A stretch of DNA of 38,462 nt from positions 1-38,462 of the forward strand of contig JABSRN010000122.1 of assembly GCA_013214025.1 (NCBI GenBank), given 5' to 3'. The notes under the pieces were generated by a model. The model did no database searches. It worked only from the letters and a program-made list of their open reading frames with translations, and was not told the DNA's origin. Shown here piece after piece: positions 28,066 through 36,813 of the stretch. Position numbers and translations under genes: made by a program. The DNA comes from Polyangiaceae bacterium (GTDB lineage: Bacteria > Myxococcota_A > Polyangia > Polyangiales > Polyangiaceae). The first letter of the stretch is position 1, and every line of letters starts with the position of its first letter.

Positions 28066-28205
28066 GGCTAGTTTACGGTCAGACGCCGCGACCTGCGCCC
28101 GGGCAAGTGGGGCGGTATCGGCAAATGTGTTGGGGGTTTCCCGATTTGGGGCGTGTTCCCGGGCGCAGGTCTTCTACCGCTGGAGGCCGTGCTATCGCTC
28201 GCGCC

Positions 28206-29825
28206 GTGAGCCCTACGGATCCCCCGTCGTCCAGCGATCATGAAGAGAACTCCGAGCTCGATTCAGCGGTCCCCAAGGAGGTGACGGCCCAGGTCGCCGC
28301 TGCTGCCGACTTGCTGGAGAGCTTGATCGCCGATCGCGCGTTGTTAGCGGGGTTGGAGCCGCAACTCGTGCGCCGTCTGCTGATCGCTGCGGGTCAGGTG
28401 TCGCGACCGGAGCGTAGCGAACAGCGTCGATTGTCCCGCGAGCGCCGGCGTCAAAATAAGACTTCGAAGCGAGAGAAGTATCGCGAGGTAGTCGCAACGG
28501 CGGGCATCCGTGCCTCGCGTCGGCAGTCGCGACTCATGCTCAGCGATCAAATGCCGCCCCTTGCCTTCGGGAGCGATGATGCGGAGCTGCCGGATTCGAT
28601 CCCAAGCGAGTCCCGCCCGCTCCCTCAATCGCGCAACTGCTACATCTGCAAGGTTGACTACGATTCCTTGCATCACTTCTACGACGCCCTGTGCCCCGAA
28701 TGTGCGGAGTTCAATTGGGCCAAACGTTCCTACCAGGCCGATCTCTCAGGGCGCGTCGCGATCCTCACCGGTGCTCGCGTCAAGATCGGCTACGAAACAG
28801 GGCTCAAGTTGCTGCGCGCCGGAGCGACTCTGGTGGCGACTACACGTTTCCCTCGAGACGCGGCCTTGCGATATGCTGCCGAGGCGGACTTCGCCGACTG
28901 GGGAGGGAGCCTCGAAATTTACGGCCTGGATCTGCGGCATACGCCGAGCGTGGAAGCCTTTTGTCGACACATGGCCGACCGCCACGAGCGACTCGACTTT
29001 ATCTTGAACAACGCGTGCCAGACGGTGCGGCGACCGCCCGGCTTCTATTCGCATCTGATCGAAGACGAAGCGCTCTCTCTCGAATCCCTGCCGGCAGGTT
29101 GTGCTCCGCTGCTCCAAAACTTCGATCGTCTTCGTCAGAGCCATCGCGACGAAACTCAAAATATTCTGGGATCTACTTCGGAGCTGGCTTTGGGACGAGA
29201 GCACCAAGGCCTAGTCGGCCTGGCTCATGCACCGGAGCTGTCACAGCTTCCTTTGATCGAGGGGGATCTGGATGCTGGAGCCCAGCTATTCCCCAAGGGG
29301 CAGCTGGACGATGACCTTCAGCAAGTAGACTTGCGCGGCATCAACAGCTGGCGGCTTCCTTTGGACGAGGTGTCCGCTGTGGAATTGCTCGAGGTTCACC
29401 TGGTCAACGCGGTGGCGCCTTTTGTGCTCAACGCACGGCTTAAGTCCTTGATGTCGCGTACGGACGCTCGGGACAAACACATTGTGAACGTGTCCGCTAT
29501 GGAGGGTCAGTTTTATCGCTCGTTCAAGACCGACAAACATCCCCACACGAATATGGCGAAGGCGGCGCTCAACATGATGACGCGCACATCCGCTGTGGAC
29601 TACATCAAAGCCGGCATTCACATGAACTCCGTCGACACCGGCTGGATCACTGATGAGGATCCTGCGCAGATCGCCGAAGAGAAGCGCCGAAGTCAGGACT
29701 TTCATCCGCCGCTGGACTCCATCGATGCGGCCGCTCGGATCTGTGATCCGATTTTTAGTGGAATCGAGACTGGCGAGCATGTCTGGGGACAGTTCCTGAA
29801 GGACTATCGGCCCACTCGCTGGTAG
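28206..29825 (+). CDS. SDR-type Rossmann protein with zinc ribbon, catalytic Tyr absent
   Basis: A 539-residue protein (GTG 28206 preferred; a GTG at 28107 is in frame but gives an atypical N-terminus). After a disordered start and a Arg/Lys-rich helix region comes a CxxC...CxxC zinc ribbon (Cys145, 148, 163, 166: CYIC, CPEC), immediately followed by an SDR-type Rossmann fold: TGARVKIG (188-195), NNA (268-270) and a serine at 430 (NVSAMEG). The usual YxxxK reads T-N-M-A-K: Thr448 stands in place of Tyr, with Lys452 kept. An insert of about 120 residues lies between the NNA strand and the catalytic region. Canonical oxidoreductase chemistry is therefore doubtful. I recall similar zinc-ribbon SDRs from oomycetes and algae. 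Confidence 0.83.
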   Translation: MSPTDPPSSSDHEENSELDSAVPKEVTAQVAAAADLLESLIADRALLAGLEPQLVRRLLIAAGQVSRPERSEQRRLSRERRRQNKTSKREKYREVVATAGIRASRRQSRLMLSDQMPPLAFGSDDAELPDSIPSESRPLPQSRNCYICKVDYDSLHHFYDALCPECAEFNWAKRSYQADLSGRVAILTGARVKIGYETGLKLLRAGATLVATTRFPRDAALRYAAEADFADWGGSLEIYGLDLRHTPSVEAFCRHMADRHERLDFILNNACQTVRRPPGFYSHLIEDEALSLESLPAGCAPLLQNFDRLRQSHRDETQNILGSTSELALGREHQGLVGLAHAPELSQLPLIEGDLDAGAQLFPKGQLDDDLQQVDLRGINSWRLPLDEVSAVELLEVHLVNAVAPFVLNARLKSLMSRTDARDKHIVNVSAMEGQFYRSFKTDKHPHTNMAKAALNMMTRTSAVDYIKAGIHMNSVDTGWITDEDPAQIAEEKRRSQDFHPPLDSIDAAARICDPIFSGIETGEHVWGQFLKDYRPTRW

Positions 29826-30419
29826 TCATGAGCCGCGGGCTCCGGCAGGGCTCACTAATCTGCAGGCTGGGGAGGGCATGGCTTTCCCTGGGGGGATCCG
29901 GACAGCCGCGTAGGAGCAAGACCACACCCGCTTACGTGTGCAACCATGTAGGCGCCGCCTGTGGGCGCGATTGAATTGTGACTGGATAGTTTCTGCAGGG
30001 TGCAATTGGTTTCCCGGGGGTCAACTGTGCCCACGGCGGTGGAGGCCCGTGGTCACGCGTGCGGCAGCTTAGGTTTGGAGAGATTCGCCTCAAGCACCCG
30101 CGCAACGCGCCGGAATTAGCTGGTTGGCGACCGCGGGCGGGGCAACCGGAAAACGCTGGCGCCCCTGTCTCTGTTGGTTGGCTGCCTCGAACAGAAATTC
30201 TCCCGGATAGCGGCTGGTGCGGGCCGGTTTTGCAACCCCCGTCGGGGGCGGCAATGCCCTTTGGGGAAAGCGTATTTCGGTCGCTAGAATGCGGACGAGG
30301 TAGGGGCCGTCTGCTATTATGCGAGAGCAGAGTTGCCCGTTCCCCAGACGCTCGCGAATGGCGTGGCGACGTCTGGCGAATGTCCTCAACTTTACTTTCT
30401 TATTTAATCAGAGGTCCCC
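29826..30419. other. Long leader/intergenic region of the lipoprotein pair
   Basis: About 590 bases without a gene that I can support; a plus-strand frame that overlaps the next gene has no protein-like features. There is a small hairpin after the SDR stop (GAGCC-GCG-GGCTC at 29830-29842) and a CCCCC-GTC-GGGGG hairpin at 30236-30248. The last 40 bases are AT-rich (TTTACTTTCTTATTTAATC), unlike the rest, and lead into an AGAGG Shine-Dalgarno. A structured RNA is possible but I could not match one. Confidence 0.45.
30236..30248. repeat. Short G/C hairpin upstream of lipoprotein pair
   Basis: CCCCC-GTC-GGGGG, a five-pair stem with a three-base loop. It may be part of the 5' leader transcript or a terminator fragment; no T-run follows. 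Confidence 0.4.
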
Positions 30420-32438
30420 GTGCGATTTTCACAGCTTTTTCTGCCGCTCCCCGTAGCGCTTTGTTTCGGCGCTTGTGCTGAGGCCGGAGATCTTCCGGGT
30501 GTAACTACTGCCGCATCTACTGGCGGTACCAGTTCGGGAGGAACATCCACTTCGGGGGGGGCCGGCGGCTCCGGCGCAGTCCCGTCCACCGGCGGTGTGT
30601 CGAGTGGAACTGGCGGAGGCTCGACCGGAACTGGCGGCAACGTCGCCAGCGGTGACGCCTCGGTGGATTCTGGCCAGACCGACGTGGATGCCGGTACCCC
30701 CTGGGCGGGCTGCAGCTCCCACGCCGAGTGCGATGATAGCGACGTCTGCACGGACGATATTTGTCGAGGAGACGGCGTCTGTTTTTACCAGCCGCAGAAC
30801 GTCGGAACCCCTTGCGACGATGGCTTGGCGTGCACCAGCGGCGACCTCTGTGTGGCTGGTGCTTGTAAGGGCAGCAACAACTGCACGGACGGCCGCGGCT
30901 GCAGCACGACAAGTGGTGAGTGCATCACCTGCAGCAGCGATGCCGACTGCGATGACTCAGACCAATGCACCACTGACTTCTGCGGTGGCAACGGCTGCGA
31001 GAATATCAAGATGAACAGCGGCTCCTGCGACGACGGCTTTGCCTGTACGACCGACGATACCTGTTCAAACGGCGAATGTGTCGCCACCGTGGCAGACGCA
31101 TCCAAGTGCAACGACACTCTCGACTGCACGATCGACACCTGCGATTTGGTGACGGGTTGTGCCAATACCCCTGCCGATCCGTTATGTGACGACGGAAATC
31201 CGTGCACCTCAGGCAGTTGCCTAGTGAACGGCGACGGCGGTGGCGGCTGCGAGCAAGCCAATACATCGGGCGATTGCAGCCTGACCTCAGTGTGCTTCGA
31301 CAACCACCGCTGTGACCTCGGTGTCTGCATCGGGGACGACACCTGCAGCGGCGGTGAATACTGCTCCAGCCCCGACAATCGTTGCGTGGAATGTGTTGGC
31401 GACGGAGAGTGCGATGACGGTTTCGCTTGCACGGCAGACAGCTGCGTTAACTTTGCCTGCGTGTACGTGACGGACGACAGCGCCTGCGCCGACAGTGAGT
31501 TTTGTTCGACCGATACGTGTGTCGCCGGCCAAGGCTGTGTTTACACGAACAACAATGGACTTTGTGACGACGGCGCCACGTGCACTCCGAGCAGCTATTG
31601 CGAGAACCAAGTCTGTGTCGGAGACGGCGACCCCTGTTCCGCCAGTGGGGGAAGTTGTCGCGACGACAGCGATGGTTGTCGGCGGCCACTGTTCGTAGGC
31701 TTCGAGGCTGACTACGGTAACTTCGTGGCCAACGACCACGAAGAAGAGGACGTCGTAGAACTGCTCATTGAACTTGAGTTCCTGACAGCTGAAAAAGCGG
31801 TCACCGAGACGCGCTACTTTGATGGCGATTCCCACTTTTCCGGCGAAGAAAAAATCAGCGCTTTTTACAAGTTCTCCGACGGCCGTATTGTTCTGAGCAC
31901 TACTAGTGACGGTTCTATTGCGGGGCTCTCTTATCAGGCTAGGGACTTAGTCCTAGTGAGCGCTGACAGGACTAGCGCCAGTATTCTGTTCGATGGCAGC
32001 GTGGTGTTCAAGGACTGTGGAGCTTTCGGCTGTAGCCGCCCAGGCAGCGTGGACGCCGTGCACATGATCGATGCCGATACCTTCGTATTTTCGGCCAACG
32101 ACGATGGGGAATTTGTGTCACCTAACATTACGTTTAACGACGGTGACATCTTGCTGTCCGACGCCGGCGTGGTGAGTGTGCTGTACAGCGACGGCACGAT
32201 TGGTAATACAGGGGACATCGACGCGATAACCGTGAATCCCGACACGCAACACTGGGCGTTGTCCTACACGTCTGACAGCGGCGGCTTCAGCGGCGGTTCA
32301 AGCTTCAAGGAAGAAGACTTGATCGAGCTCGCCTACGGACCCGGCGATGCCACTCCGACCGGAGTCTACAAACGCATATTTCAAGGGGCCCAGATGACGG
32401 ATTTTGGAACCGATCTTGTAGCGGCTCACATCGACTAG
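30420..32438 (+). CDS. Cys-rich CDDG-repeat lipoprotein, first of a tandem pair
   Basis: A 672-residue surface protein starting with GTG 30420 (AGAGG upstream). A signal ends in the lipobox FGAC (Cys19). A Gly/Thr/Ser linker follows, then about 340 residues of repeats of the form CDDGxxCTxDxC (such as CDDGLACTSGDLC, CDDSDQCTTDFC), each with several Cys likely forming disulfides. The last 250 residues form repeated beta units of 50-60 residues with signatures IDAITV...DG..LS....GLSY..RDL and a terminal FQGAQMTDFG. No catalytic motif is visible. It lies 26 bases before its paralog, with similar domain order, so the two are probably one transcript. Confidence 0.88.
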   Translation: MRFSQLFLPLPVALCFGACAEAGDLPGVTTAASTGGTSSGGTSTSGGAGGSGAVPSTGGVSSGTGGGSTGTGGNVASGDASVDSGQTDVDAGTPWAGCSSHAECDDSDVCTDDICRGDGVCFYQPQNVGTPCDDGLACTSGDLCVAGACKGSNNCTDGRGCSTTSGECITCSSDADCDDSDQCTTDFCGGNGCENIKMNSGSCDDGFACTTDDTCSNGECVATVADASKCNDTLDCTIDTCDLVTGCANTPADPLCDDGNPCTSGSCLVNGDGGGGCEQANTSGDCSLTSVCFDNHRCDLGVCIGDDTCSGGEYCSSPDNRCVECVGDGECDDGFACTADSCVNFACVYVTDDSACADSEFCSTDTCVAGQGCVYTNNNGLCDDGATCTPSSYCENQVCVGDGDPCSASGGSCRDDSDGCRRPLFVGFEADYGNFVANDHEEEDVVELLIELEFLTAEKAVTETRYFDGDSHFSGEEKISAFYKFSDGRIVLSTTSDGSIAGLSYQARDLVLVSADRTSASILFDGSVVFKDCGAFGCSRPGSVDAVHMIDADTFVFSANDDGEFVSPNITFNDGDILLSDAGVVSVLYSDGTIGNTGDIDAITVNPDTQHWALSYTSDSGGFSGGSSFKEEDLIELAYGPGDATPTGVYKRIFQGAQMTDFGTDLVAAHID

Positions 32439-32464
32439 CCTTTCCTGCACCTCGGGAGGATCTC

Positions 32465-34363
32465 GTGCGCAATTCTTTACTTAGTTGTTCAATCTTGTTG
32501 GCGGCCTGCGTTTATGGCTGCACGGAATCGCCTGATTTGGCCGGTGACGATGCGGGCGGAGCCGGAGGCGGCTCTTCGACGGGTGCGAGCTCGGCGGGGG
32601 GAGCCACGTCGGGAGCGGCGACATCCACCGGAGGCGTCGGTAGCGGAGGAACTGGCGGCGCCAATACCGAACCCGTGTTCGTACCGTGTACGGCTCATGA
32701 GGACTGCGAAGACAACGACATCTGTACCGACGACATTTGTCGAGGGGACGGGGTCTGTTTCTACCAACCTCAGAACGACGGAACGGCGTGCGATGACGGC
32801 CGGGCGTGTTCCGATGGGGACCTGTGTTTTAACCAGGTGTGTCGCGGGAGCAGTACCTGCGCCGAGGGCCAGGGTTGCAGCTGGGTCACTGGTGAGTGTA
32901 TTTCCTGCGTCAACGATTCCGACTGCGACGACGGCAATCAGTGCACCACCGACTTTTGCGGCGGCGAAGGTTGCGAGAACATCAACCACACGGAGCCTTG
33001 TGATGATGGCATCGAATGCACTACGGGCGACATCTGCGCCGCAGGAGATTGCAATGGGCAACTGGCGGACAACGGTCTGTGCGATGACTCGGTCGATTGC
33101 ACGATGGACGTCTGCGACTTGGCGAGCGGCTGTTCAAACACCGAGGCGGATCCTTTCTGCGACGATGGCAACAATTGCACCACCGGCCGCTGCGAGGCCA
33201 TCAGTGGCTGCAGTCAGGAGCCCACCTCCGGCTCTTGTGGCGTCGGAGTGGATTGCCTGACGGACCCTCGTTGCGCAGACGGGGTGTGTATCGGTACCGA
33301 TACTTGCGATGTTGGAAACGGCATGTACTGCGCTGTCAGTGCCGCCCAATGCGTCGCTTGCCTGGACGCGTCCGAGTGCGATGACGGCGTTCCCTGCACG
33401 GAAGATCTCTGCGTCAATTATGCGTGCGAGAACAACGCGAACAATGCTCTGTGCGAGGACGGCGACCCCTGCACGACCAACACCTGCAATGGGACCACTT
33501 GCGAGGTGGCTCCGAACACGGGCTCTTGTGACGACGGCGCCAGTTGTACCACGGGGGACACCTGCACCGCCTCAGTCTGCGGTGGCACGGACAATGGCTC
33601 CTGCAGCCATTCTTTGTTCTTAAGTTACGTCGACGGGTTTGGATTATCGGCGGCGGACACCTTCGAAGATGGTGACGTTGTCGAATTTGTTGTTCCGCTT
33701 CTTTATGGGGATACCGCCAGTAGTGAGAGTGAGTTCTTCAGCGAAGATGGCTTCAGCGGCAATGAAGACATCAACGCGCTGCACGTATTTGCTGATGGTC
33801 GGATGATCCTATCCACCGACTCCGACGCGAATGTGTCGGGCTTGGGCTTTCAACATGAGGACTTGGTCGAAGTGGCTGCAGATGGTGGCAGCGCTACGGT
33901 GTTCATGAACGGTAATTCCACGCTGGACTGCAGCGGGATGATGTGCAGCGCACCAAGTGTTGATGCCGTACATGTCGTTGACGGTACGACTTTTGTGTTT
34001 TCGGTGACCGGCAGCGGGCGATTTTCTTCACCCAACATCAGCATCGCGGATGGCGACATCCTGCAATCCAAAGACGGTGTCTTCAGCGTGTTGCTCTCCG
34101 AAAGCGCCATCGGCTACGGCGGTAATATTGATGCCATCACTGTGAACCCGAGGAACGGCCACTGGATGCTCTCCTACTCCAATAGTGGGGAATTGGCATT
34201 CAATGGCGGACCGACGTTTTCCAATGAAGATATGATTGAATTGCCATTCGGGCCGAGCGGTGTCCCGTTCTCCGGGCCGTACCGACTCGTGTTTGACGGC
34301 AGCGCAATGACCGATCTGGGCGGCGATCTGTCCGGTGATCTAAACGCAGCGAGCGCCCGCTAG
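32465..34363 (+). CDS. Cys-rich CDDG-repeat lipoprotein, second of a tandem pair
   Basis: A 632-residue paralog of the preceding gene. GTG 32465 has GGGAGGA five bases upstream. The lipobox is probably LAAC (Cys15); VYGC (Cys19) also fits. It repeats the layout: Gly/Ser/Thr linker, CDDG-repeat Cys-rich region, then the same C-terminal repeated beta module with INALHVFADGRMILST, VDAVHVVDGTTFVFS and IDAITVNPRNGHWMLS units. A stretch around CRGDGVCFYQPQN is identical in both proteins and strongly similar in DNA, while other parts differ more, which points to local gene conversion or selection. Function unknown; an adhesin-like or matrix role is inference. Confidence 0.88.
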   Translation: MRNSLLSCSILLAACVYGCTESPDLAGDDAGGAGGGSSTGASSAGGATSGAATSTGGVGSGGTGGANTEPVFVPCTAHEDCEDNDICTDDICRGDGVCFYQPQNDGTACDDGRACSDGDLCFNQVCRGSSTCAEGQGCSWVTGECISCVNDSDCDDGNQCTTDFCGGEGCENINHTEPCDDGIECTTGDICAAGDCNGQLADNGLCDDSVDCTMDVCDLASGCSNTEADPFCDDGNNCTTGRCEAISGCSQEPTSGSCGVGVDCLTDPRCADGVCIGTDTCDVGNGMYCAVSAAQCVACLDASECDDGVPCTEDLCVNYACENNANNALCEDGDPCTTNTCNGTTCEVAPNTGSCDDGASCTTGDTCTASVCGGTDNGSCSHSLFLSYVDGFGLSAADTFEDGDVVEFVVPLLYGDTASSESEFFSEDGFSGNEDINALHVFADGRMILSTDSDANVSGLGFQHEDLVEVAADGGSATVFMNGNSTLDCSGMMCSAPSVDAVHVVDGTTFVFSVTGSGRFSSPNISIADGDILQSKDGVFSVLLSESAIGYGGNIDAITVNPRNGHWMLSYSNSGELAFNGGPTFSNEDMIELPFGPSGVPFSGPYRLVFDGSAMTDLGGDLSGDLNAASAR

Positions 34364-34578: not shown

Positions 34579-36813
34579 ATGTCTCGGCTGACCGCTATCA
34601 TCAATTCCGGCGCTGACCCGGCCGCTGTCAGTCAGCTCCACCTGCGGCGACTGCGGGTCGTCAACATCGCGTCCCTGGGCATGGTGGCGGTGGGTGTCGC
34701 GCTCACGGCTCAATACTATCTGCTGGGTTTGGCGGCGATGGCTGTAGCGGTGTTGGGGACCATCGCGGTCACCGGGCTGAACATGCTGTGGATGCGCCGC
34801 ACGCTGGAGCCGGCACGCCACGGCATGGTGGCGACCTTTGCGCTGTGGTTGCTGCTCGTGCTTAGCTGTCTGTATTCCGGAGGTTTCTACGACCCCAACA
34901 TGGCCTGGCTGTGTGTGTTGCCTGTGGTGGGCACTCTCGTGGGCACCGCTCGGGTCGGGTGGGCATTCACGGCGGTTGTGCTGCTCACGGTGATCGCCTT
35001 TTGGATGGCACCGACTTGGGGTTATGAGATCCGGAACCTGATTCCAGAGGAGAACCGCCCTCAGTATGCGTTGGCGAATCGTTTGTTGGTCGTATTTGGG
35101 ATCGGGGTACTGATGGCAGCCCTGACCGACGCGCAGCGGGTAGCGGAGGCGCATCTATTGCAGGCGAACGTCGAGCTGAAGGCCTTCGCTGAGGCGAAGA
35201 CCGCGGCGGAACACCGGGCCCAGCAGGCGAGCCGCGCCAAGAGTGATTTTGTCTCGAATATGAGCCACGAAATTCGCACACCCCTAACGGGCATGATGGC
35301 CGCGAACGATCTCATGATGAAGAGCGGGCTCGGCGAGGAGCAACGAGTGCTGGCTCTGACGATGCGCTCATCTGCGGAGGTGTTGCTGAGCCTGGTCAAC
35401 GATGTTTTGGATTTTTCGAAGATCGAAGCCGGTAAGCTCGAGATCGAATCTCGGGTGTTCGATGTGCATCGGCTAGTCAAAGACGTGACGGCTCGTTTCG
35501 CCCCCGTTGCTGAGGCCAAGGAGCTGAGGCTGGGCTACAAGATCGAATCCGACGTGCCCCGTTGGCTGGTAGGGGATTCCCTGCGCATCCAGCAGGTGCT
35601 GTCGAACATCGTCAACAATGCCGTGAAATTTACGGCATCGGGCAAGGTCACGCTGGCTGCCGCCGTTAGTGGCAATGACGGGGACGTCGTGACCGTACGT
35701 TTTGATGTCAAGGATACGGGCGTGGGCATCTCGGAGGAGGCGCGGGAGCGATTGTTCAAGTTTTTTACTCAGGTGGATGCATCGACGTCGCGGCAATTTG
35801 GCGGCACGGGCCTGGGTCTCGCCATCAGCCAGCAGCTTGCACAGCTGATGGGTGGGGGCATCTCCGTGGATAGCGAACCCGGTACGGGCAGTTGTTTCCA
35901 CGTGGCATTGCCTTTCGCCATTCCTTGTGCAGCCGACGCTCACTCGATTCGCCCGAACACGCGCGATCACGATATCAAGCGTGTGGCGACGGAGGACTCC
36001 CCGGCGGTGTTGTTGGCAGACGACAATGCGACCAACCTCAATCTATCTGCGGCGCTCATCCGCTCCATGGGATATCGCGTTACCGGTGTCGGCGGCGGTG
36101 TGTCGGCGGTCGCGGCTCTGAGCGGGGGGCATGACTATTCCGCGGTACTACTGGACTGGCAAATGCCGGACCTAGATGGGCTCAGCGCCGCTCGACAAAT
36201 CCGACAGGCGGAGGAGCAGGCGAATTCAGCTCGGGTCCCGATCATTGTGGTGACGGCTCGCGCGCTCAAGGGAGACCGTGAGGAGGCGATGCATGCCGGC
36301 ATGGACGACTATCTGACGCGTCCGTTTCGCCAGGAGCAACTGTTCGATGTGCTGCAGCGCTGGGCGCCCTTGGAATTGGAGGACCGCGATTCAGCTACCC
36401 TAGTTAGCCCTCAACGCTCCCCGGGGAAGCAAGAGGAGCCCCCACCGAGCTCCGAGGGGTGGCCCGTGATCGATAGCGTTATCATGGGAGAGCTGAAGCA
36501 ACTAGATGCGGAGAACGGCCATACCTTTCTCGGGACATTCGCGAAGAACTTCTTGGACGACGCCGAGCGTGAGCTTCGTTTGTTGCACGAGGCTGTGAAA
36601 AATCAGGACATGTCCGAAATCGAGTCCATGGCTCACAAGATCGCCGGCTCTAGTGGGACCATCGGAGCGATGAGCTTGCACAAGAAAAGCAAGGCATTGG
36701 AGGAGGGGGCTCGCGGCGGGCAGTTGAACAATGCGGAAGAACTGGCCACCGGTCTCGACGGCGAATTTGCGGCCGTACGGCAGGCATTGGCCCGGGAAGT
36801 CAGCCTCGACTAG
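34579..36813 (+). CDS. Membrane hybrid histidine kinase with receiver and HPt domains
   Basis: A 744-residue kinase with about six N-terminal membrane helices (residues 25-180) in place of a periplasmic sensor. A coiled-coil segment leads to HisKA with phosphoacceptor His230 (SNMSHEIRTPL), an HATPase with NNAVKF, DTGVGI and GGTGLGLAIS, a receiver domain with phosphoacceptor Asp526 (VLLDWQMP), and a C-terminal HPt domain with His686 (AHKIAGSSGTIGA). In the receiver the conserved lysine near the C-terminus is replaced by arginine (DYLTRPF, Arg581). The chain of His-Asp-His domains implies an internal phosphorelay that would pass to a separate regulator. The single-receiver gene that follows on the opposite strand is a candidate but not shown. 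Confidence 0.93.
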   Translation: MSRLTAIINSGADPAAVSQLHLRRLRVVNIASLGMVAVGVALTAQYYLLGLAAMAVAVLGTIAVTGLNMLWMRRTLEPARHGMVATFALWLLLVLSCLYSGGFYDPNMAWLCVLPVVGTLVGTARVGWAFTAVVLLTVIAFWMAPTWGYEIRNLIPEENRPQYALANRLLVVFGIGVLMAALTDAQRVAEAHLLQANVELKAFAEAKTAAEHRAQQASRAKSDFVSNMSHEIRTPLTGMMAANDLMMKSGLGEEQRVLALTMRSSAEVLLSLVNDVLDFSKIEAGKLEIESRVFDVHRLVKDVTARFAPVAEAKELRLGYKIESDVPRWLVGDSLRIQQVLSNIVNNAVKFTASGKVTLAAAVSGNDGDVVTVRFDVKDTGVGISEEARERLFKFFTQVDASTSRQFGGTGLGLAISQQLAQLMGGGISVDSEPGTGSCFHVALPFAIPCAADAHSIRPNTRDHDIKRVATEDSPAVLLADDNATNLNLSAALIRSMGYRVTGVGGGVSAVAALSGGHDYSAVLLDWQMPDLDGLSAARQIRQAEEQANSARVPIIVVTARALKGDREEAMHAGMDDYLTRPFRQEQLFDVLQRWAPLELEDRDSATLVSPQRSPGKQEEPPPSSEGWPVIDSVIMGELKQLDAENGHTFLGTFAKNFLDDAERELRLLHEAVKNQDMSEIESMAHKIAGSSGTIGAMSLHKKSKALEEGARGGQLNNAEELATGLDGEFAAVRQALAREVSLD

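Follow-up and report, generated by a model that had tools for sequence, protein, structure and literature searches.

Few natural β-propellers are known to have just four blades. Propellers of four to twelve blades are reported for the Protein Data Bank (PDB) (PMC6805158), and in a survey of propeller blades the hemopexin-like family, named there as a 4-bladed cluster, is located next to the main hub, and velcro closure of propeller rings is described (PMC3797127). In Myxococcus xanthus, the protein TraA is described as combining a PA14 domain, nine Cys-rich repeat elements (TIGR04201) and a MYXO-CTERM (PMC3325183). Here, we analyzed a stretch of 38,462 nucleotides from a Polyangiaceae bacterium (contig JABSRN010000122.1 of assembly GCA_013214025.1, positions 1 to 38,462), hereafter the window, in which two adjacent genes, P0001 and P0002, encode Cys-rich proteins that end in a repeat module. 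This module belongs to a widespread family that none of the searched libraries names, and structure modeling predicts, with little doubt on our part, that it folds as a four-bladed β-propeller. We propose, with a probability of roughly 0.6, that each protein presents a four-bladed propeller head with an extracellular binding role on a Cys-rich stalk at the cell surface.

Repeat architecture of the C-terminal module

P0001 (672 amino acids, positions 30420–32438) and P0002 (632 amino acids, 32465–34363) lie head to tail on the forward strand and both start with GTG. Their products are identical at 281 of 576 amino acids (49%, E 4e-165) and are thus paralogs, and the original prediction for this DNA, which had described tandem Cys-rich paralogs, gave both open reading frames exactly. 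In both proteins the same domain order was found, namely a signal sequence, a Gly/Ser/Thr linker, 9–10 Cys repeats and a C-terminal module of ~250 amino acids. Alignment with relatives, which have the same layout, revealed a 3 + 1 layout of the module, in which three repeats are complete and the fourth is divided between the two module ends. The complete repeats of the window modules are 56–71 residues long and each opens with an [IV]DA-like motif, whereas the first repeat is without this start and its missing piece is the C-terminal end of the protein (DLVAAHID in P0001, DLNAAS in P0002).

In P0001, the module covers 31677–32435, as delimited by profile and alignment and with its structure read via the model of the paralog P0002. 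It begins with the N-terminal part of the split blade (31677–31850, from an alignment of 34 modules termed A4), continues with blades 1, 2 and 3 (31851–32045, 32046–32213 and 32214–32411, from the profile and blade comparison), and ends with the strand DLVAAHID (32412–32435, from A4), which would complete the split blade by analogy with the P0002 model. The P0002 module (33602–34360), delimited by the profile and an AlphaFold2 model of its first 252 residues, is divided in the same way into the N-terminal part of the split blade (33602–33766), blade 1 (33767–33955), blade 2 (33956–34123), blade 3 (34124–34336), which is the least regular full blade of the model, and the closing strand beginning DLNAAS (34337–34360), seen in the model at module residues 247–251. 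Blade 1 carries a CxxxxC pair in both proteins (Cys533/Cys538 in P0001, Cys489/Cys494 in P0002), after which no further Cys occurs in either window module.

The repeats were identified with a one-blade profile built from blades 1–3 of 32 modules, none of them from the window. On P0002 the profile scored 63.0 bits and matched three full blades and a partial one; on P0001 it scored 29.3 bits, with three blades and two stretches below 1 bit. The best score among 2000 shuffles of the two modules, 1863 of which were reported at E ≤ 10, was 11.8 bits. The C-terminal repeats of the original prediction are therefore real, and its count of about three holds for the complete repeats while missing the split fourth. 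The repeat number is also constant among relatives. We obtained 85 clusters of at least two repeats, which are not independent because loci overlap and the profile had been trained on many of these modules: 38 had three full repeats and one N-terminal partial repeat, 33 had three full repeats, 5 had four repeats of which the first started at profile position 7–8 and was thus without its first strand, and 9 had fewer repeats, some being cut by locus ends. Four repeats were the maximum, and a five-repeat cluster was found in none of the 85. In proteins with two modules (L051, L058, L067 and L069), the modules form separate units, each of three full repeats with or without a detected partial one.

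Predicted fold of the module

AlphaFold2 modeling of the P0002 module with alignment A4 gave a mean predicted local distance difference test (pLDDT) of 85.5 and a predicted template modeling score (pTM) of 0.86, and the same sequences led by a Chloroflexi module (L064) gave 96.9 and 0.92, respectively. Secondary structure assignment with DSSP showed that the strands of the repeats in the L064 model follow a regular pattern, that blades 1 and 2 of the window model are regular, and that both models have the last C-terminal strand. Since the N-terminal partial blade is without its first strand and the last C-terminal strand carries the corresponding motif, the fourth blade is predicted to be built from both module ends, locking the ring by velcro closure. 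When VIA-align was run over the candidates of Foldseek, hemopexin-type four-bladed domains occupied ranks 1–6 for the window model (Z 10.8–9.7, 160–182 of 252 residues, rmsd 3.6–3.8) and ranks 1–5 for the L064 model (Z 11.4–9.6, 164–169 of 250 residues, rmsd 3.7–4.0). A viral structure library returned generic propeller matches.

Several observations weigh against a firm count of four blades. Blade 3 and the split blade of the window model have fewer or shorter strands, and some of their blocks have lower pLDDT. In both VIA-align rankings the entries directly under hemopexin are six-bladed propellers or other proteins, less than 1 Z unit from the lowest hemopexin entries, and near ties are formed by 8jxb (Z 9.6, window model) and 3qqz (Z 9.6, L064 model). 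The top of the Foldseek results consisted of propellers of the low-density lipoprotein (LDL) receptor, megalin, the designed SAKe and Kelch, with template modeling scores of 0.17–0.44 of the query among the matches listed. Structure comparison by itself thus leaves the blade number unfixed, and the number rests mainly on the sequence repeats. In addition, pairwise comparison of the blades within each protein was weak, fewer than 25 of 500 shuffles reaching the observed score in just 4 of 12 pairs; the repeat is therefore clear only by profile, and it had been fair to call it only loosely recognizable, as was done originally.

The combination of a constant repeat number with a repeat shared between the first and last pieces is needed by a closed propeller and is not needed by a solenoid. 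Solenoids are common on bacterial surfaces, and short β-strand repeats on a long secreted protein would also suit an open β-solenoid or fibre, serving to lengthen the stalk or to form polymers. We nevertheless regard this reading as very improbable, because clusters hold at most four repeats, the pieces at the two ends are complementary, and both models are compact, at the pTM values given above, and match propellers. Accordingly, of the two shapes between which structure prediction had been suggested to decide, the two models, the VIA-align ranking and the repeat counts point to the closed propeller, and the idea of long surface fibres found no support, there being no sign of polymerisation and no cluster of more than four repeats.

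Family identity and the relation to hemopexin

Neither P0001 nor P0002 has a Pfam match above cut-off or an NCBIfam match at E ≤ 1, and none of the 34 modules yielded a Pfam family above its cut-off. Considering sub-cut-off Pfam matches at E ≤ 0.1 among these modules, DUF4984 appeared in 5 of the 34 (best 20.0 of 25 bits, E 6.1e-4), Sial-lect-inser in one (20.5 of 25.8 bits, E 4.3e-4) and AbrB_C in both window modules (15.9 of 22.8 bits), while NCBIfam gave scattered weak matches, each family in at most 4 of the 34 (best E 4.1e-4, RnaseHI_Halo, two modules). Searches of PDB chain sequences returned nothing significant, the best E-values being 0.029 for the P0002 module, 0.26 for an earlier profile (A1) and 0.34 for A4; these weak matches were to unrelated proteins and were set aside. 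Word searches of open-access full texts retrieved no description of the module, which is not proof that none exists. A match to a well-described domain, which had been named as what would overturn the original view, is thus found at the level of the fold and is not found at that of the sequence family.

A rival explanation is that the module belongs to the hemopexin-repeat family (PF00045) and has diverged so far that the fold is left and the sequence similarity is gone. The top of both VIA-align lists is taken by hemopexin-type domains, and bacterial hemopexin repeats, which were found in 5 out of 140 genomes in the phylum, also open their blades with [IVL]DA. However, PF00045 was listed for none of the 34 modules at E ≤ 1. 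In HHalign comparisons, the blade profile reached a probability of 4.2% against 16 bacterial hemopexin blades, as compared with 98.8% in the positive control, for which the new family was divided into a Myxococcota-type and a Chloroflexi-type half and the two were aligned. This test is weak, since undisputed propeller families reach only 0.1–15.7% mutually (WD40–Kelch 15.7%, Kelch–NHL 14.9%). Against WD40, Kelch and NHL the blade profile scored 13.2, 2.5 and 6.8%, a weak test with small controls taken from matched segments (7, 7 and 6 rows, respectively); the sub-group runs peaked at 23.7% (Myxococcota-type with Kelch) and 17.6% (Chloroflexi-type with WD40), with hemopexin at 4.9–5.7%. The profile–profile comparison covered hemopexin, WD40, Kelch and NHL. 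Because this comparison has low power, the case for separating the module from hemopexin is made by the Pfam search and by the different arrangement of the ends, a split blade with a closing strand.

A further difference concerns disulfides. In hemopexin, a disulfide joins the first and last blade, whereas the window modules have no Cys near the C-terminus with which a blade I–IV disulfide could form. Taken together, we consider a hemopexin origin unlikely, at perhaps one chance in several. The most far-reaching form of our proposal is that the module represents a separate superfamily of four-bladed β-propellers without a library name and with no sequence relation to hemopexin, in which the ring always closes by a split blade and Ser/Asp sites recur in all four blades. 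Used for extracellular binding in general by bacteria of six or more phyla, it would here have been placed on Cys-rich stalks and multiplied to a few recognition proteins, two of them encoded in a putative operon; in this full form the odds seem to us about even. As a separate observation, two genomes of the phylum encode bacterial hemopexin-repeat proteins (L073 and L074) with four blades, as judged by eye, and a long extra C-terminal region.

Distribution and partner domains

The search for the module in other proteins, suggested originally, was productive. Three further intact modules were found in the source genome, one each on contigs C101, C11 and C172, and all three adjoin Cys-rich repeats; a sixth, incomplete copy broken by a stop codon lies on contig C175 (526–974; L130 and L131). 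A tree of 37 modules groups all five intact copies from the source genome in one clade (100/99), within which the P0001 and P0002 modules are sisters (99/95). At the C-terminus of the proteins on C101 and C11 lies a C-type lectin domain (E 1.8e-9 and 7.3e-7, respectively), which was missed in whole-protein scans and found when the ends were scanned alone. Both are large proteins (L008 on C101, L010 on C11) with long runs of another Cys repeat of the xxDxDCGGxC type, followed by the internal propeller module, more Cys repeats and the C-terminal C-type lectin domain.

Within the phylum, the module was detected in 19 of 282 genomes with a five-row profile and in 32 of 377 with the 34-row profile, the source genome included in both counts. 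Named genomes contributed 27 loci from Myxococcota, Zixibacteria, Pseudomonadota, Acidimicrobiales (Actinomycetota), many Chloroflexota and one Tolypothrix (Cyanobacteriota), so that by taxonomic labels the relatives spread over six phyla; as most of these genomes are metagenome-assembled, single phylum placements may be binning errors. The Tolypothrix locus (L072, Tolypothrix sp. FACHB-123) is a 4.6-kb stretch with two reading frames that carry one propeller module each, in a record that is not marked as a metagenome-assembled genome. A first scan of genome contigs with profile A1 recovered no relatives, and viral contigs gave no match with it; with profile A2, viral contigs yielded one locus (L045), which is cut by the contig end and was left out of A4.

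Among ten scanned proteins of relatives, partner domains included Laminin_G_3, CBM96, cadherin, Calx-beta and TSP3, and the module therefore keeps the company of extracellular binding domains. Judged from these neighbors (C-type lectin, laminin-G-like, carbohydrate-binding, cadherin and TSP3 domains), the word "receptor" in the original prediction appears plausible.

Probable anchor and stalk, and proposed role

P0001 and P0002 are secreted and probably lipid-anchored, as judged from their N-termini. The signal sequence of P0002 (32465–32509) ends in the candidate lipobox LLAAC (Cys15), which fits a strict pattern of the PROSITE PS51257 type; the corresponding segment of P0001 (30420–30476) ends in the candidate lipobox FGAC (Cys19). 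The linkers that follow are Gly/Ser/Thr-rich in P0001 (30477–30710; 63% G/S/T at residues 20–95) and Gly/Ser/Thr/Ala-rich in P0002 (32510–32686). They lead into Cys-rich regions with about 9–10 CDDGxxCT-type repeats in P0001 (30711–31676) and 9 in P0002 (32687–33601), which contribute to totals of 56 and 55 Cys in the whole proteins. Dicty_CTDC (PF00526) scored 21.9 and 19.8 bits on these regions, below its cut-off of 27 bits, which is reached by the copy on contig C172 (27.7 bits). TIGR04201 (Myxo_Cys_RPT) and MYXO-CTERM had no match in the two whole proteins, nor had TIGR04201 when the Cys regions were rescanned, and the assignment of the stalk to Dicty_CTDC or TIGR04201 was dropped. Elsewhere in the source genome, MYXO-CTERM has five matches and Myxo_Cys_RPT two, which makes it credible that the host is a myxobacterium. 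A disulfide-rich region beside a repeated β module in a closely spaced gene pair, as originally described, is thus supported, and the lipid anchors are probable, with a candidate lipobox that fits the strict pattern in P0002 and the relaxed one in P0001.

Domain order, repeats, 3 + 1 layout, the confident propeller prediction and family membership were computed directly, and the proposed role builds on them. The N-terminal lipid anchor would hold both proteins at the cell; outward from it, a flexible Gly/Ser/Thr spacer would be followed by a disulfide-rich stalk of 9–10 short Cys repeats, keeping the propeller head away from the membrane. The disulfides, the shape of the stalk and the exposure at the surface are inferred. 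The head would most likely bind an extracellular ligand, either a glycan or a protein of another cell or of the matrix.

Other findings count against this account. The candidate lipobox of P0001 fits the relaxed pattern only, the strict form being absent. Within the same family, Polyangiaceae, the module occurs in 1 of 108 genomes, the source genome itself, and is therefore not a core trait. In addition, a relative in genome G050 (L017/L035, contig C31) has a 1104-amino-acid frame with a module on each side of a metallophosphoesterase domain, so that not every copy of the module need be a binding head. At that locus, a second module-bearing frame adjoins on the opposite strand.

The last finding bears on whether the head is itself an enzyme or an enzyme accessory, for example a lactonase or a phosphoesterase. 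Structural matches to gluconolactonases, a propeller lactonase and nucleotidases, together with the relative that has a Metallophos domain in the same protein, would agree with such a function, and the Asp of the IDA start is asymmetric, being kept in 97% of blades 2 and in 32–55% of the other blades among the 34 A4 modules. By contrast, the remaining polar residues of highest conservation recur in every blade: in successive blades of A4, Ser ends strand 2 in 94, 85, 97 and 64% (with Thr in another 32% of the last), and Asp opens strand 3 in 88, 100, 97 and 100%. Because they are repeated in all four blades, these Ser/Asp sites, with the exception of the IDA-start Asp of blade 2, look structural or ion-holding rather than catalytic. 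We therefore think an enzymatic head improbable and retain a binding head on a Cys-rich stalk as the favored account.

Gene pair and surrounding DNA

The two genes are separated by 26 nucleotides. Likely ribosome-binding sites were read directly from the sequence, AGAGG (30410–30414) for P0001 and GGGAGG (32454–32459, within the intergenic stretch) for P0002, both on the forward strand and 5 nucleotides before the start codon. Between the two genes, third codon positions diverge the most. A dedicated heteromer or receptor pair would be in line with two adjacent genes on one strand, a short gap with a Shine-Dalgarno-like sequence, the 49% identity and the sister position in the tree. On the other hand, each of the genome's three remaining intact copies is found on a contig of its own (C101, C172 and C11), and divergence after tandem duplication accounts for the adjacency equally well; a dedicated pair is therefore a possibility that we hold at well below even odds. 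The suggestion in the original prediction that the two may act together draws on adjacency and paralogy.

A promoter and terminator scan gave one promoter-like site (2.0 in shuffles) and six terminator-like sites (4.0 in shuffles, standard deviation 2.3), and Rfam had no match within the window at the gathering threshold. Downstream on the same strand, starting 215 nucleotides past P0002, lies a gene for a hybrid histidine kinase (34579–36813; HisKA, HATPase_c, receiver and Hpt domains), for which a link to the gene pair is possible. The protein encoded at 28107–29825 has a short-chain dehydrogenase domain in two matched parts ~110 residues apart, preceded by ~215 N-terminal residues without a match.

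Comparison with known systems

If the proposal is correct, the module would form a second bacterial four-bladed group, set apart by library search, with a constant blade number, a spread over six phyla and no Pfam family. It would also give a name to many secreted proteins now labeled "hypothetical" and provide a new case of how propeller evolution fixes blade number.

The hemopexin-like domain (PF00045, SCOP b.66), known from the C-terminal domains of MMPs and from plant seed albumins, is one of the known systems closest to the module, sharing the four-bladed propeller predicted for it, the top VIA-align Z scores (9.7–10.8 and 9.6–11.4) and an inner strand of the [IV]DA type that opens the blades. 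It differs in blade length, the window blades having 56–71 residues as compared with a 45-position hemopexin profile, and the module has a split-blade velcro closure, no Pfam match and no invariant or nearly invariant His among the 34 modules of A4. The lack of such a His argues against heme binding of the kind known for blood hemopexin.

Receptors of the LDL-receptor/LRP type combine Cys-rich modules with an extracellular YWTD propeller in their ectodomains. They gave structural matches to the window model at Z of about 8–9.6. The YWTD propeller of the LDL receptor is described as having six blades (PMC8023676), whereas the module has at most four repeats per cluster, and the Cys repeats differ as well. 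No sequence relation to these receptors appeared in the Pfam scan of P0001 and P0002 or in the A4 profile search of the PDB. Propellers of the VCBS/integrin and WD40/Kelch/NHL types share the fold and differ from the module in its four blades; the VCBS group is described as prokaryotic and as carrying signal sequences (PMC8023676). For the stalk, Dicty_CTDC offers the same CDDG..CT..C spacing, and it differs in that P0001 and P0002 score under its cut-off.

Within the same phylum, TraA as described also displays a recognition head with Cys-rich repeats (PMC3325183). The heads differ, being a predicted, C-terminal propeller in the window proteins and PA14 in TraA, and so do the attachments, a probable N-terminal lipid anchor as compared with the MYXO-CTERM reported for TraA (PMC3325183). 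PA14 had no match in P0001 or P0002 at E ≤ 1, and by sequence the two proteins are not members of the TraA family. By analogy, they may work like TraA, which for myxobacteria suggests a second kind of recognition head carried on Cys-rich repeats beside that of TraA.

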